A stretch of DNA of 64,000 nucleotides from Limimonas halophila (GTDB taxonomy: Bacteria > Pseudomonadota > Alphaproteobacteria > Kiloniellales > Rhodovibrionaceae): contig NZ_FNCE01000004.1 of assembly GCF_900100655.1 (NCBI RefSeq), positions 62,001 to 126,000 of the forward strand. Reading direction: 5' to 3'. Below are positions 44,845 through 51,207 of this stretch, one piece after another. The first letter of the stretch is position 1. Every line of letters starts with the position of its first letter. Position numbers and translations under genes: made by a program. The notes below the pieces were generated by a model. The model was not told the origin of the DNA and did no database searches. It saw only the letters and a list, made by a program, of their open reading frames with translations.

Positions 44845-45612
44845 ATGCCCGTCGACATGACAGTTGGCCAGTACAATCTGGTCTACAACTTCTTCTCGTT
44901 CACGATCGCCGTCATGGCGGCGTCGACCCTCTATTTCTGGATGGGGCGGCCGCTCGTGGCGCAGCCGTACAAGATCGCCGTGACCATCACGGGCTTGGTT
45001 ACCTTTATCGCATTTTATCACTACTTCCGCATTGCCGAGAGCTGGGACGCCGCCTTCACGCTCGCCAACGGAGCCGTCGAGCCGACCGGAAAGCCCTTCA
45101 ACGACGCCTACCGCTACGTCGACTGGCTGCTCACCGTCCCGCTGCTGATGATCGAGCTGATCCTCATCATGCGCCTGCCGCAGAAGGAGACGGTGTCCAA
45201 GGCCACGCGGCTGGGCGTGCTGGCGGCGATCATGATCGTGCTCGGCTATCCGGGCGAGGTCGCGACCGACGACGGCACCCGTTGGCTGTTCTGGGTGCTG
45301 GCGATGCTGCCGTTCATCTGGATCGTCTACGAGCTGGTCGTCGGCCTTTCCAGCGCCATCGACAAGCAGCCCGAGAACGCCAAGGGCCTGGTGAGCGCCG
45401 CGCGCTGGCTCACCGTCGCCGCGTGGCTGTTCTACCCGATCGTCTTCCTCTTCCCGATGATCGGGCTGACGGGTGCAACCGCGGAGACCTTCGTGCAGGT
45501 CGGCTATTCCGTTGCCGACATCGTCGCGAAGGCGGTCTTCGGCGTGCTGATCTTCCAGATCGCCATGCGCAAGACCGAGGCGGAGTACGGCGGCGCCAAG
45601 GCGTCCGGCTGA
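44845..45612 (+). CDS. Light-driven proton-pump rhodopsin, xanthorhodopsin-like
   Basis: A 255-residue seven-helix rhodopsin. Helix C reads RYVDWLLTVPLLMIE, giving the DTE triad Asp93 (proton acceptor), Thr97 and Glu104 (donor). His59 pairs with Asp93, and Lys229 in ADIVAK binds retinal. Leu101 at the spectral-tuning site predicts green absorption. The sequence follows Salinibacter xanthorhodopsin (as I recall it) along helices A-E, but Trp150 replaces the Gly that admits a carotenoid antenna. AGGAG precedes the ATG. The crtEIBY-blh operon behind it supplies retinal. It should pump protons outward in light. Confidence 0.96.
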   Translation: MPVDMTVGQYNLVYNFFSFTIAVMAASTLYFWMGRPLVAQPYKIAVTITGLVTFIAFYHYFRIAESWDAAFTLANGAVEPTGKPFNDAYRYVDWLLTVPLLMIELILIMRLPQKETVSKATRLGVLAAIMIVLGYPGEVATDDGTRWLFWVLAMLPFIWIVYELVVGLSSAIDKQPENAKGLVSAARWLTVAAWLFYPIVFLFPMIGLTGATAETFVQVGYSVADIVAKAVFGVLIFQIAMRKTEAEYGGAKASG

Positions 45613-45621
45613 CCGCCGACC

Positions 45622-45646
45622 GGGGGTGGGGCCAAGCCCCACCCCC
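45622..45646 (+). terminator. Strong hairpin between rhodopsin and crtE
   Basis: GGGGGTGGGGC (45622-45632) pairs with GCCCCACCCCC (45636-45646), an 11-bp perfect stem with a CAA loop, followed by TTCC. It can act as a partial terminator, giving more rhodopsin than pathway mRNA, or as a 3'-end stabiliser. Confidence 0.85.
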
Positions 45647-45682: not shown

Positions 45683-46693
45683 ATGACCGGAAACGCCGAC
45701 ACCCCCCTCGAGGCCGCGCTGGCGCAAGCACGCACGCAAGCGCCCGCCGTGGAGGCGCGCCTGCGCACCGCCTGGGCGGACACCCCGCTCGCGGCGGCGG
45801 GCGCGGCCCACGATGCCGCCGGCGGCAAGCGCAGCCGCGTGCGCCTGACCCTGACCGCCGCGGCCCTGCTCGGCTGCGACGCGCGCGACGCCGAAGCCGC
45901 CGCAGCGGCGGTCGAGCTGCTGCACAACGCCTCGCTGGTTCACGACGACCTGATCGACGAAGACGCCACGCGCCGCGGCGTGCCGAGCGTCTGGAAGACC
46001 CACGGCACGGCCGGCGCGGTGCTGCTCGGCGACCGCCTGCTCGCCGCCGCGCACGCCGAGGCCGCGGCCACCGGCGCGCCGCGCGAGCTGGTGCAGGCCC
46101 TGAGCGCCACCGCGCGCCGGCTGGTGGACGGCGTCGCCCGCGAACGCGCCCCCGCCGCCACCGCGCCCGGCGACGCGGCGCGCGACGCCTACCTCGATCT
46201 GGCGCGCGACAAGAGCGGCGCGCTCTTCGCCTTCGCCGTGGACGCGGCACTGATCCTGGCCGGGGTGCCGCACCGCGAGCGCCATGTCGCGCGGACGGCC
46301 TTCGAAGCCCTGGGCGCGGCCTACCAGATCGGCGACGATCTGGCGGACCTGGACGGGCACAAGCTCGGCCGGCCGGCGGGCGGCGACGTCGCGGCGGCGC
46401 GGCTGTGCGCCCCCGTCGCGGCGCTGCGCGCCCTCGGCGAGCCGGCGACGGTGGCCGCGTTCGATCGCTTTCTGGCCGCGCCGGAGGATGCCGAGATCTG
46501 GATCGCCCGCCTGCGCGGGGCCGACGTGCGGGCCGAGATCACGGGCTGGCGGGATGGGCTGATGGGTGACGCCGCCTCCGCTGCCGCCCGCCTGCGCCCG
46601 GAGCTGCGCGCGTTCACCGGCTGGGCCGCGACGGCCATCGGCGGCCCCGCCCCCAGCGAGGAGGCGCCGGCATGCGCCGCCGCGACGCCGTAA
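45683..46693 (+). CDS. crtE: Geranylgeranyl diphosphate synthase
   Basis: A 336-residue polyprenyl synthase. The first Asp-rich motif is HDDLIDED (about 91-98) and the second is GDDLADLDG (about 216-224); GGKRSRVRL binds the diphosphate. It condenses isopentenyl diphosphate with allylic diphosphates to C20 GGPP, the substrate of CrtB. It is the first pathway gene behind rhodopsin; crtI starts 22 bases before it ends. Confidence 0.9.
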   Translation: MTGNADTPLEAALAQARTQAPAVEARLRTAWADTPLAAAGAAHDAAGGKRSRVRLTLTAAALLGCDARDAEAAAAAVELLHNASLVHDDLIDEDATRRGVPSVWKTHGTAGAVLLGDRLLAAAHAEAAATGAPRELVQALSATARRLVDGVARERAPAATAPGDAARDAYLDLARDKSGALFAFAVDAALILAGVPHRERHVARTAFEALGAAYQIGDDLADLDGHKLGRPAGGDVAAARLCAPVAALRALGEPATVAAFDRFLAAPEDAEIWIARLRGADVRAEITGWRDGLMGDAASAAARLRPELRAFTGWAATAIGGPAPSEEAPACAAATP

Positions 46694-48195
46694 GCGCGCC
46701 CCACACGGCCGGTCCGCGGCCGCGCGCGGTGGTCGTGGGCGGCGGCTTCGGCGGCATCGCCTCGGCGCTGCGGCTGCGCGCCCGGGGCCACGACGTCACG
46801 CTGGTGGACCGCTGCGCGCGCCTGGGCGGCCGGGCGCAGGTCTACACGGTCGGCGGCGCGTGCATGGACGCCGGGCCGACCGTCATCACGGCGCCGCACC
46901 TCTTCGACGAATTGTTCGCGTTGTTCGGCCACGACCGCGCCGAGTTCGTGCGCTTCCTGCCGGTCTCGCCCTGGTACCGCATCCGCTTCCACGACGGCGA
47001 GCACTTCGACTACGGCCCCACGCCGCGCATCGAGTCCGAAATCGCGCGCCTCTCGCCCGGCGACGTGGACGGCTACCGCCGCTTTGCCGCGCACGCGCGC
47101 AAGCTCTTCGACAAGGGCTTCACCGAGCTGGGCGACCAGCCCTTCCACAGCTTCGGGCGGATGCTGCGCACCGTGCCCGATCTGGCGCGGCTGCGCGCCG
47201 ACCGCTCGCTGTACGGGCTGGTGTCGCGCCACATCCGCGATCCGCGCCTGCGCACGGCGCTCAGCCTGCAGCCGCTGCTGATCGGCGGCGATCCGCACCG
47301 CACCACCTGCATCTACGCCCTCATCCACGAGCTGGAGCGGCGCTGGGGCGTCGTCTTCCCGGAAGGCGGCACGGGCGCGCTGGTGGACGCGCTGACGCGG
47401 CTGCTGGACCTCGCGGGGGTCGAGGTGCGCACGGGCACGACCGTGGAGCGCATCGCCGTGCGCGACGGGCGGGCCGTGGGCGTCGACCTGGCGGGCGGCG
47501 GCCACCTTTCGGCGGATGTCGTGGTGGCGAACGCGGACCCGGCGCGGGTCTACGGCCACATGGTGCCGGATGTCGCCAAGCGCCGCTGGACGGCGCCGCG
47601 CCTGAACCGGCTGCGCTACGGCATGGGCCTCTACGTGCTCTACTTCACCACCGATTGCGCCTATCCCGACGTCGCGCACCACACCATCGCCGTGGGCCCG
47701 GACGAGCGCGACGAGCTGCGCGACATCTTCGACCGTGGGCGGCTGTGCGCGACGCCCAGCGTCTATCTGCACCGCCCGGCGGCGACCGACCCCGGCATGG
47801 CGCCGCACTGCGGCGGGGACAGCTTCTACGCGCTGGCGTGCACGCCCAACCTGCGCGCCGGGATCGACTGGGGCGAGGCGGCAGCGCAGGTGCGCGAGCG
47901 CGTGCTCGACCGCCTGGAAGCCAGCGAGTTGCCGGGCGTGCGCGGCCACATCGCCGCCGAGACGGCGGTGACGCCCGAGCACTTCGCCCACGCCTACCTG
48001 GACCGGCACGGCAGCGCCTTCCGCATCCAGCCGTTGTTCACGCAGTCGGCGTGGTTCCGCTTCCACAACCGCAGCGAGGAGGTGGCGGGGCTGTACTGCG
48101 TCGGCGCGGGCACGCACCCCGGCGCCGGGGTGCCCGGCGTGCTGTGTTCCGCCAAGGTCGTGGAACGCGTGATCGCGGCCGGGGCGCCGGCATGA
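46672..48195 (+). CDS. crtI: Phytoene desaturase (lycopene-forming)
   Basis: A 507-residue flavoprotein with the FAD motif VVVGGGFGGIASALRLRARGH (19-39, shown in part), GGRAQ, DAGPTVIT, and the C-terminal CrtI signature GLYCVGAGTHPGAGVPGV. It should introduce four double bonds into phytoene to give lycopene. GGAGG lies before the ATG, which overlaps crtE by 22 bases; crtB starts on its stop codon (ATGA). Confidence 0.95.
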   Translation: MRRRDAVSAPHTAGPRPRAVVVGGGFGGIASALRLRARGHDVTLVDRCARLGGRAQVYTVGGACMDAGPTVITAPHLFDELFALFGHDRAEFVRFLPVSPWYRIRFHDGEHFDYGPTPRIESEIARLSPGDVDGYRRFAAHARKLFDKGFTELGDQPFHSFGRMLRTVPDLARLRADRSLYGLVSRHIRDPRLRTALSLQPLLIGGDPHRTTCIYALIHELERRWGVVFPEGGTGALVDALTRLLDLAGVEVRTGTTVERIAVRDGRAVGVDLAGGGHLSADVVVANADPARVYGHMVPDVAKRRWTAPRLNRLRYGMGLYVLYFTTDCAYPDVAHHTIAVGPDERDELRDIFDRGRLCATPSVYLHRPAATDPGMAPHCGGDSFYALACTPNLRAGIDWGEAAAQVRERVLDRLEASELPGVRGHIAAETAVTPEHFAHAYLDRHGSAFRIQPLFTQSAWFRFHNRSEEVAGLYCVGAGTHPGAGVPGVLCSAKVVERVIAAGAPA

Positions 48196-49121
48196 GCCAG
48201 GCCGTCGATCCCCTCGCGCCCGCCGACGTGCTGCGCGCCCAGGGGCGCTCCTTCCACTGGGCGGCGCGCTTCATGTCCGCCGCGACGGCCGGCGACGCCG
48301 CCGTGCTCTACGCCTTCTGCCGGCGCATCGACGACCTGGGCGACGAAACCGCGCCGGAGCGCGCGGGGCCGGCGCTGGATGCGGTGTTCGCGGCGCTCGA
48401 CGGCGGCCCGGTGCCCGACCGCGAAACCGAACGCTTTCTGGGGCTGGCGCAGCGGCGCGGCATATCTTTGGACGCCGCCCGCGCGCTGGTGCGGGCCGTG
48501 CGCGCCGATCTGGACGCGCCGCAGCTTCCCGACGGCGACGCGCTGATCCAATACGCCCATGGCGTCGCCGGCACGGTCGGGGTGATGATGTGCCCCGTGC
48601 TGGGCGTGCGTGACCCGCGCGCGTGGCCCTTCGCGGTGGACCTCGGGATCGCCATGCAGCTCACCAACATCGCCCGCGACGTGGGCGAGGACGCGGCCAG
48701 CGGCCGCCGCTACCTGCCGGCGACGTGGCTGGGCGGGCCGCTCAGCCCCGCCGAGTTGTGTGCCGGGGACAGCGAGGTGGACGGCCGGGTGCGCCGGGCG
48801 CTGGCGCGCACGCTGGAAACGGCGGACCGCTACTACGCCAGCGCCGAGCGCGGCATGCGCTTCATCCCCGCGCGGGCGCGGCTGGCGATCTTGGCGGCGC
48901 GGCACATCTACGCCGCCATCGGGCCGCGCGTCCTGGCGGCTCACGATTGGCGCCGGCGGGCCGCCGTGCCGCCGGGCCGCAAGGCGGTGTGCTCCCTGGC
49001 CGCCCTGATGGCATTCGCGCACCCGCGCACGTGGGATGTGGGGTCGCCGTCTGCGCACGATCCCGCGTTGCACGCGTCCATCGCCGGACGCGTGGGCGCC
49101 GACCCGGATGCCCCGGCATGA
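48192..49121 (+). CDS. crtB: Phytoene synthase
   Basis: A 309-residue squalene/phytoene synthase with both Asp-rich motifs (FCRRIDDLGDE, about 42-52; LTNIARDVGEDAASGRRYLP, about 156-175). It joins two GGPP molecules head-to-head to phytoene. It starts with an ATGA overlap on crtI and ends with an ATGA overlap into crtY, so the proteins should be made in step. Confidence 0.95.
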   Translation: MSQAVDPLAPADVLRAQGRSFHWAARFMSAATAGDAAVLYAFCRRIDDLGDETAPERAGPALDAVFAALDGGPVPDRETERFLGLAQRRGISLDAARALVRAVRADLDAPQLPDGDALIQYAHGVAGTVGVMMCPVLGVRDPRAWPFAVDLGIAMQLTNIARDVGEDAASGRRYLPATWLGGPLSPAELCAGDSEVDGRVRRALARTLETADRYYASAERGMRFIPARARLAILAARHIYAAIGPRVLAAHDWRRRAAVPPGRKAVCSLAALMAFAHPRTWDVGSPSAHDPALHASIAGRVGADPDAPA

Positions 49122-50266
49122 GCGCGCGCGTCGTCATCGCCGGCGGTGGGTTGGCGGGCTTGAGCCTCGCGGTGGCATTGCTGGACCGCGATCCGGCGGC
49201 GCGCGTCACCGTGCTGGAGCCGCGCACGGCCTACGCCGACGACCGCACCTGGTGCTTCTGGGATGTGGAGCCCCATCCCTTCCGCGACCTGATCGCTCAG
49301 CGCTGGCGGTCGTGGCGGGTCGCCACGCCGGCCGGCGTGGCCGTCGCCGAAGACGCTGGCGTTCCCTACGCCCGCGTGCGCGCCGGGGACGTCTACGCCC
49401 GCGCCCGCGAGCGCATCGCCGCCGCGCCCAACGCCGAGTTGCGCACCGGCGTCAGCGTGCGGCGCGTGGCCGGCGACCACGTGGAAACCGAGACGGGCGA
49501 GGTGATCGGCGCCGGGGTCGTCTGCGACGGCCGCCCGCCGGCGGCCGATGCGCTGCGCGCGCCCGGCGAACCTTTCCTGTGGCAGGTCTTCGCGGGTGCC
49601 CGTGTCCATGCCCGCCCCGGCACCTTCGCGCCCGGCACGGTGGACCTCATGGACTTCCGCGTGCCCCAGGCCGGCGAGATCCGCTTCCGCTACGTCCTGC
49701 CCGACAGCGACGCCAGCGCCCTCGTGGAACTGACGGCCTTCACGCCCTCGCTGCCCGAGCGGGGGGCGCTGGACGGCGCGCTTGCCGACGCCGTCGCGGG
49801 CGTTGCCGGGAACGCGGCCGAGGTGGTGGCGGGCGAGCAGGGCGCGATCCCCATGACCACGGCACTGCCCCCGGCGCCGGCCGCGCCGGGTGTCATCCCC
49901 ATCGGCACGCGCGCGGGCGCGCCGCGGCCGAGCACGGGCTACGCCTTCCTGCCCATCCAGCGCCATGCCGCGCGGCTGGCCGAGCGCATCCTGGCGGGGG
50001 CGCCGCAACCGCTTCCGATGCGGGGAGCGGGCACCCGCTGGCTGGACCGGATCTTCCTCAACCGCCTGCTAGCCGAGCCGCAGGGCGCACCCGAGCTGTT
50101 CCGGCGGCTGGCGGCCGGCGTGCCGGGCGACGCCCTGGCGCGCTTTCTCATGGAGCGCGCGCGGCCGGCGGATGTGGTTCGGGTGATGGCGGCGCTGCCG
50201 GTCGGCCCCTTCGCCCGCGAGGCCGTGCGCAGCACGACGCCGTGGCCGGCGAGGGCGGCGGGATGA
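49118..50266 (+). CDS. crtY: Lycopene beta-cyclase
   Basis: A 382-residue CrtY-type cyclase. It has the N-terminal FAD motif VVIAGGGLAGLSLAVAL, the DDRTWCFW motif (about 42-49), the FRVPQAGEIRFRYVLP core and the STGYAFLPIQRHAA motif, followed by FLNRLL. It closes both ends of lycopene to beta-ionone rings and gives beta-carotene. It overlaps crtB upstream and blh downstream by 4 bases each. No ketolase or hydroxylase gene is present. Confidence 0.94.
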   Translation: MSARVVIAGGGLAGLSLAVALLDRDPAARVTVLEPRTAYADDRTWCFWDVEPHPFRDLIAQRWRSWRVATPAGVAVAEDAGVPYARVRAGDVYARARERIAAAPNAELRTGVSVRRVAGDHVETETGEVIGAGVVCDGRPPAADALRAPGEPFLWQVFAGARVHARPGTFAPGTVDLMDFRVPQAGEIRFRYVLPDSDASALVELTAFTPSLPERGALDGALADAVAGVAGNAAEVVAGEQGAIPMTTALPPAPAAPGVIPIGTRAGAPRPSTGYAFLPIQRHAARLAERILAGAPQPLPMRGAGTRWLDRIFLNRLLAEPQGAPELFRRLAAGVPGDALARFLMERARPADVVRVMAALPVGPFAREAVRSTTPWPARAAG

Positions 50267-51207
50267 CGGGTGCGGCGGCGCTGCGCGCAACGCACGCGCG
50301 GGCGGCGCTCGGCGTGACCGTCGCCGCCGTGGCGATCGCGACCCTGCTCCCGGCGCCCGGCGCGGCGGCGAAGGCGGCGGTGCTGGCGGCGCTGGTGGCG
50401 GTGCTGGGGCTGCCGCACGGTGCGGTGGACCACCTGGAAGGGCAGACGCTCCTGGCGCCGCGCGTGGGCCGTGCGTGGTGGCTGGTGTTCGGGGCGCTCT
50501 ACGTGGCGGCGGCCACCGTCGTCGTGGCGGCGTGGCTGCTGTGGCCGCCCGGGCTGCTCGTGGGATTCCTGCTGCTCGCGGCGGGGCACTTCGGCGCCGA
50601 GGACGTGGCCGCCGACCCGGCCGCGCCGCGCGGTCCGCTGCGCGTGCTGGAAGCTGGCCTGCGCGGCGCGATCCCGGTGCTGGGGCCGGTGCTCTTCCAT
50701 CCCGAGCGCACGGGGGAGCTGTTCGCGTACCTGCTGCCGGGATCGTCGGCGGCGGGCGTGCAGGCCGTGCTGGTGCCGCTGGCCTGGGGCGCGCCCGTGT
50801 TCGCCGGTGCGCTGGCGGCGTTCGCCGTCATCGCCTGGGCGAGCGGGCGGCGGGGCACGGCCGTGGAGGTGCTGGCGTTGACGGTGGCGGTGGGGGTGCT
50901 GCCGCCGCTGCTGGCCTTCGTCGTCTACTTCTGTCTGTGGCACGCGCCGCGGCACACCCTGACGGTGGCGGCGCGCCTGAGCCCGGCGGACGCGCGGCGC
51001 GGGCTGATCCGCTTCGCGCGCGCGGCCTGGCCGTTGACGCTGGTGACGATCGCGGCGGGCACCTTGGCGTGGTGGGGGCTGACTGGCGCCGTGAACGCCG
51101 TTCCCGCCGCGATCGCCACGGTCTTCGTCGGGCTTGCGGCCCTGACGGTGCCGCACGTGGTCCTGGCGGCCCTGCACGCGCGGTCTCATATCGCCACGGC
51201 CACGTGA
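50263..51207 (+). CDS. blh: Beta-carotene 15,15'-dioxygenase, Brp/Blh family
   Basis: A 314-residue membrane protein with 7-8 hydrophobic helices and the four iron-binding His segments of the family: LPHGAVDH (His52, His57), AAGHFGAED (His109), LWHAPRH and VPHVVLAALH. It cleaves beta-carotene symmetrically into two retinal molecules, the chromophore for the rhodopsin at the operon start. It starts on the crtY stop (ATGA). Confidence 0.93.
   Translation: MTGAAALRATHARAALGVTVAAVAIATLLPAPGAAAKAAVLAALVAVLGLPHGAVDHLEGQTLLAPRVGRAWWLVFGALYVAAATVVVAAWLLWPPGLLVGFLLLAAGHFGAEDVAADPAAPRGPLRVLEAGLRGAIPVLGPVLFHPERTGELFAYLLPGSSAAGVQAVLVPLAWGAPVFAGALAAFAVIAWASGRRGTAVEVLALTVAVGVLPPLLAFVVYFCLWHAPRHTLTVAARLSPADARRGLIRFARAAWPLTLVTIAAGTLAWWGLTGAVNAVPAAIATVFVGLAALTVPHVVLAALHARSHIATAT

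Follow-up and report, generated by a model that had tools for sequence, protein, structure and literature searches.

Does the xanthorhodopsin-like gene of Limimonas halophila encode a pump served by a carotenoid antenna, or one that works with retinal alone? An initial annotation of the window (the whole stretch of 64,000 nucleotides analysed here) favoured the latter and held that the protein should do so despite its family. Xanthorhodopsins were divided by Vollmers et al. in 2013 into subgroup I, with Gly156 (numbering of Salinibacter xanthorhodopsin, XR) and an antenna, and subgroup II, defined by a retinal-gene cluster, by Trp156 in most members and by the absence of a crtO orthologue (PMC3646047). 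We consider it highly probable that the opsin of the window is a light-driven outward proton pump of this published subgroup II type, using retinal alone.

The opsin gene and its retinal cassette

The opsin is encoded by an open reading frame running from an ATG at 44845 to a stop at 45612 with no internal stops in its translation, and the ATG is preceded by aacaggagcagcaaaATG. Its product matched the Pfam family Bac_rhodopsin at 141.1 bits, the top solved relatives found by phmmer being psXR (9wfa, 252 bits), XR (3ddl, 252 bits), Gloeobacter rhodopsin (GR; 6nwd, 251 bits) and Kin4B8 (7ytb, 223 bits). Over the aligned stretches, identity was 51.9% to Salinibacter XR, 48.6% to GR, 48.1% to Kin4B8 and 44.0% to TR, and reached 77.3% with the homologue of Rhodovibrio sodomensis. 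Foldseek, queried with an AlphaFold2 model of the opsin (mean pLDDT 93.2; 51 aligned sequences as input), placed XR 3ddl at the top (52% identity, rmsd 1.6, query TM-score 0.91), with psXR and GR also among the best matches. Lys229, which by its position we take to be the retinal Schiff-base lysine, and D225 were invariant in the 51-row alignment. The retention of the DTE set and of His59, proposed from the start, was confirmed: H59, D93, T97 and E104 are all present, and the equivalent positions were identical in 80/80 aligned homologues (best 80 of 375).

The gene heads a full retinal cassette on one strand, in the order opsin, crtE, crtI, crtB, crtY and blh, each gene from crtE to blh overlapping its successor (Table 1). 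A search for the lycopene-cyclase family gave no match and contributed nothing further. The downstream cassette genes include no ketolase, as the initial annotation had noted of the nearby pathway.

Table 1. Features of the opsin locus, in positions of the window.
Feature	Position	Strand	Basis
Xanthorhodopsin subgroup II-type rhodopsin, 255 aa, predicted light-driven proton pump	44845..45612	+	sequence, alignment, tree, model
Trp150 codon (TGG), equivalent to XR Gly156; fenestration closed	45292..45294	+	alignment
Met154 codon, equivalent to XR Thr160, a published carotenoid contact (PMC3646047)	45304..45306	+	alignment
Phe201 codon, equivalent to XR Tyr207	45445..45447	+	alignment
Lys229 codon, presumed from its position to be the Schiff-base lysine for retinal	45529..45531	+	51-row alignment
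crtE-like polyprenyl (GGPP) synthase; earlier GTG at 45626 possible	45683..46693	+	
crtI, phytoene desaturase; the sole one above the family cut-off in the genome	46672..48195	+	
crtB, phytoene synthase; its ATG overlaps the stop codon of crtI	48192..49121	+	
crtY, lycopene beta-cyclase; 77 bits with an NCBIfam model, below its threshold	49118..50266	+	
blh, beta-carotene 15,15′-dioxygenase (Brp/Blh), makes retinal	50263..51207	+	

The carotenoid site and the carotenoid genes of the genome

Helix E aligned without gaps, opsin GTRWLFWVLAMLPF against XR GTRGLWGFLSTIPF, with both phmmer and MAFFT, so that the correspondence of XR Gly156 to Trp150 put forward initially is borne out. The remainder of the site was scored at ten named keto-carotenoid contacts (XR 156, 160, 191, 194, 197, 198, 201, 205, 207 and 211; PMC3646047, PMC3587595, PMC12308411), a smaller set than the 16 positions used in PMC3646047 itself. 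The opsin was identical to XR at 3/10 of these, compared with 8/10 for GR, 7/10 for Kin4B8 and 6/10 for TR. A tyrosine at XR 207 is reported in PMC12308411 to be conserved across all known carotenoid-binding rhodopsins; with Phe201 at this position and three contacts out of ten, the case against an antenna therefore has more than one residue behind it. Neither of the residues that mark the 4-keto antenna of subgroup I, Gly156 and Tyr207, is found in the opsin, nor is the glycine at Kin4B8 153 that characterizes the Kin4B8 type.

The antenna of Kin4B8 consists of 3-hydroxylated xanthophylls devoid of a keto group (PMC13093654, PMC12308411), and a search for hydroxylases was therefore needed in addition to one for ketolases. 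The 3.04-Mb genome (26 contigs; listed completeness 100%) yielded no convincing CrtW, CrtO or CrtZ. The CrtO search matched CrtI itself only, far below the cut-off, and the CrtW model reached 19.6 bits at most, on the genome's one FA_desaturase gene, which is DesA-like (324.6 bits, the cut-off of that model being 500). The CrtZ query, named from its motifs and its adjacency to a CrtW-like gene and matched by no NCBIfam model, scored 393 bits against itself, 172.5 in genome G039 and 26.9 (29% identity) in the genome of the window; one of the two FA_hydroxylase genes present is OlsE-like and the other (L087, contig G000:C3), a distant match, has 29% identity to CrtZ over ~120 residues. Because these CrtW, CrtO and CrtZ matches were all unconvincing, the genome would make no 4-keto carotenoids, nor, as far as hydroxylases of the CrtZ type are concerned, 3-hydroxy ones, and the ketolase (CrtW or CrtO) expected in a subgroup I genome was not found in it. 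In a set of ten genomes, too small in number for a test, the CrtW score exceeded 200 bits in two, G069 (Gly, Tyr) and G039 (a distant rhodopsin), and seven gave no match, including G192 (Trp) and G273 (Gly, Phe). We rejected the idea that the opsin shares its genome with a reaction centre, the search for reaction-centre genes finding no match there and one in a control genome. Outside the window, the genome carries a second phytoene synthase (L103:7659-8636, contig G000:C4) with 75.6% identity over 307 aa to the CrtB of the cassette; none of the ORFs of at least 240 aa around it was recognised by eye as a carotenoid gene.

Given Trp150, Phe201 and a genome without a convincing match for CrtW, CrtO or CrtZ, the absence of an XR-type antenna is well supported, the lack of carotenoid binding being extrapolated from related families and published work; from the same sources, the opsin very probably functions as a retinal-only proton pump. 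The conclusion of the initial annotation thus stands, and two of its supports fall away. The antenna-less subgroup II is the opsin's own subfamily (PMC3646047), so that working without an antenna is predictable from the subgroup, and "as is usual in its subgroup" is the correct wording in place of "despite its family". The missing ketolase, for its part, is not decisive alone and was discarded as sole proof, since the xanthophylls of Kin4B8 need none (PMC13093654, PMC12308411). A carotenoid could also come from an outside source.

That the opsin does carry a carotenoid, bound to its surface elsewhere or with its ring rearranged so as to dispense with the Gly156 hole, appears improbable to us. 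Carotenoid binding has proved broader than thought, DDR2, a sodium pump with the glycine, binding salinixanthin (PMC10026069), and a myxol-bound chloride pump has been solved, going by the title of structure 9jow; however, the glycine is presented as the primary criterion for binding and bulky substitutes as abolishing it (PMC9151804, PMC12308411), and the route identified in the genome stops at beta-carotene, which carries neither keto nor hydroxyl groups, the ones considered in connection with binding. We give still less credence to a role as a light sensor instead of an energy pump, of the kind that has been proposed for the XR of Sphingomonas AAP5, which is expressed at a low level and shares one operon with a histidine kinase (PMC7762795): the cassette partners of the present opsin are retinal synthesis genes only, its D, T and E pump residues are all kept, and light-induced proton efflux was the activity that Vollmers et al. 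assayed in E. coli with an Octadecabacter subgroup II protein (PMC3646047). Hardly worth entertaining is the possibility that helix E was misaligned by a shift and that the opsin is a xanthorhodopsin with a carotenoid antenna and a glycine at the hole after all; nothing was found in favour of this, two independent alignments concur, and it is refuted by the sequence, glycine being absent from the interval between G144 and P156 (GTRWLFWVLAMLP).

For the retinal-only pump that we favour, the five downstream genes would make retinal from C5 precursors, crtE leading by way of phytoene and lycopene to beta-carotene, which Blh would then cleave. The retinal would be held as a Schiff base on K229, and light would send a proton to D93, the presumed partner of H59, and then outward, with E104 re-protonating from the inside. 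Trp150 would plug the hole beside the retinal ring that admits the carotenoid ring in XR, GR and Kin4B8, and with Phe201 standing in for the tyrosine of the site, no antenna would be expected to dock there.

Distribution of the Trp and Gly types

Of 375 confirmed relatives the best 80 were kept, and in these the column of XR 156 held Trp in 57 and Gly in 23 and nothing else, a proportion biased towards Trp by one (WLFWVLAM) of the six search peptides, which includes the residue. Two rows with a single stop in the matched stretch (L007 and L048) were retained with the stop masked, and four loci with no ORF through the motif filter (L107, L002, L003 and L004) were left out. With Trp in 57/80 of these homologues, Trp150 is a conserved clade state rather than a stray substitution; nor can it be called surprising, the Trp form having been published in 2013 (PMC3646047). 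The column of XR 207 held Phe in 55/57 Trp rows and, in the Gly rows, Tyr in 16/23 and Phe in 7/23. Tyr207 is retained alongside Trp in G192, L009 and L047, and Phe201 is therefore not strictly tied to Trp; independent pairs were too few for a paired test of their co-change.

When the trait column was left in, a careful tree placed all 58 Trp rows, that of the opsin among them, in one clade (support 100/77), whereas a quick tree built after removal of four trait columns needed two changes, one being also possible. A branch of the careful tree with 100/100 support divides the opsin and the 80 homologues, which include Loktanella and an Octadecabacter MAG, from XR, GR, Kin4B8 and TR, the only four references in the tree, in which long branches were flagged. 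The opsin is thus placed apart from XR and GR and with Octadecabacter-type sequences, as subgroup II membership entails. Its nearest rows are Rhodovibrio, an Ectothiorhodospiraceae MAG and an alphaproteobacterial MAG, and members of the Trp clade, a good number of which are MAGs, belong, judging by record titles, to Pseudomonadota, Verrucomicrobiota, Acidobacteriota, Armatimonadota, Gemmatimonadota and Chloroflexota. At least one cassette gene accompanied the opsin at 51/57 Trp loci and 18/23 Gly loci, and all five at 16/39 and 4/14, respectively, of those with at least 5.5 kb of downstream DNA. No CrtW or CrtZ was found near the opsin in any of the 80 homologue loci, Trp or Gly, so their presence does not separate the types.

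A tentative reading, which we would not yet call likely, is that closing of the antenna hole was rare among cassette-borne xanthorhodopsins, perhaps a single event, with one Trp clade having carried its retinal genes into at least the six phyla named above, in most cases bearing a second seal (Tyr207 to Phe). If true, antenna loss would mark a successful mobile lineage as opposed to scattered losses. Such pumps are rare among relatives of the host, matches at E ≤0.001 occurring in 4/58 sampled relative genomes (the window's own and three at 27-28% identity) and, at 1e-30, in 5/385 genomes of the class, the window's genome counted.

In Rhodovibrio sodomensis (L005), the source of the closest homologue, crtY- and blh-like matches lie downstream of the opsin, and no crtE, crtI or crtB was found within the 12.9-kb locus. 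Rhodovibrio is an anoxygenic phototroph, and its opsin may draw on a different carotenoid pathway.

Seven of the 23 Gly-type homologues (L050, L062, L066, L068, L069, L078 and L083) combine Gly156 with Phe207, an open hole from which the conserved tyrosine is gone, the state seen in the Octadecabacter MAG; such proteins would be informative as to which residue decides carotenoid binding. Both Gly156 and Tyr207 are kept in the other sixteen (L014, L031, L035, L055, L057, L060, L067, L070, L072, L074, L076, L077, L079, L081, L082 and L084), which include Sphingomonadales and Brevundimonas. On their sequences, these are candidates for true antenna binding in a part of the family supposed to lack the antenna.

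Comparison with known rhodopsins

The opsin shares its fold and pump residues with the subgroup I proteins Salinibacter XR (3ddl) and GR (6nwd), at 52% and 49% identity, but differs in carrying Trp150 and Phe201; these two proteins, which bind 4-keto carotenoids, show Gly156/Gly178 and Tyr207 at the equivalent positions. It likewise shares the fold of Kin4B8 (7ytb, 8i2z; 48% identity), which binds zeaxanthin and lutein and has Gly153 in place of the Trp (PMC13093654, PMC12308411); replacement of this glycine by a bulkier residue was reported to prevent zeaxanthin binding (PMC12308411). A laboratory mimic of the natural state of the opsin is GR G178W, with Trp at the equivalent position, although there it was engineered into a carotenoid-binding background. 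As described by Chuon et al. in 2022, this substitution blocks the binding of carotenoid (canthaxanthin) and confers better pumping and better resistance to high pH, and Trp occupies the position in 24% of 150 homologues (PMC9151804).

Published work thus already covers the Trp/Gly switch, its effect and the split of the family, and the opsin leaves the known picture unchanged. It is a clean Trp-type example beside that of Rhodovibrio and, because neither a reaction-centre gene nor a convincing xanthophyll gene was found in its genome, a good antenna-free control for carotenoid-rhodopsin work.

The opsin closely resembles subgroup II as described in PMC3646047 and PMC3832224: a DTE-type pump with a cassette of crtE, crtI, crtB, crtY and, in some, blh, in which XR 156 is Trp in most members, keto-carotenoid contacts are few and a ketolase is lacking. 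The retinal-gene cluster, the Trp and the few contacts (3/10) are all found in the opsin. Keto-carotenoid binding was inferred by Vollmers et al. to be impossible for subgroup II, and in their account an Octadecabacter member showed no salinixanthin binding despite having the glycine (PMC3646047); the Octadecabacter proteins assayed carry Gly at 156, whereas the present opsin is of the Trp form and from a different organism. Spiribacter, another halophile, has the same opsin type, and its strain UAH-SP71 resembles the genome of the window further in carrying a second crtB away from the cassette (PMC3832224).
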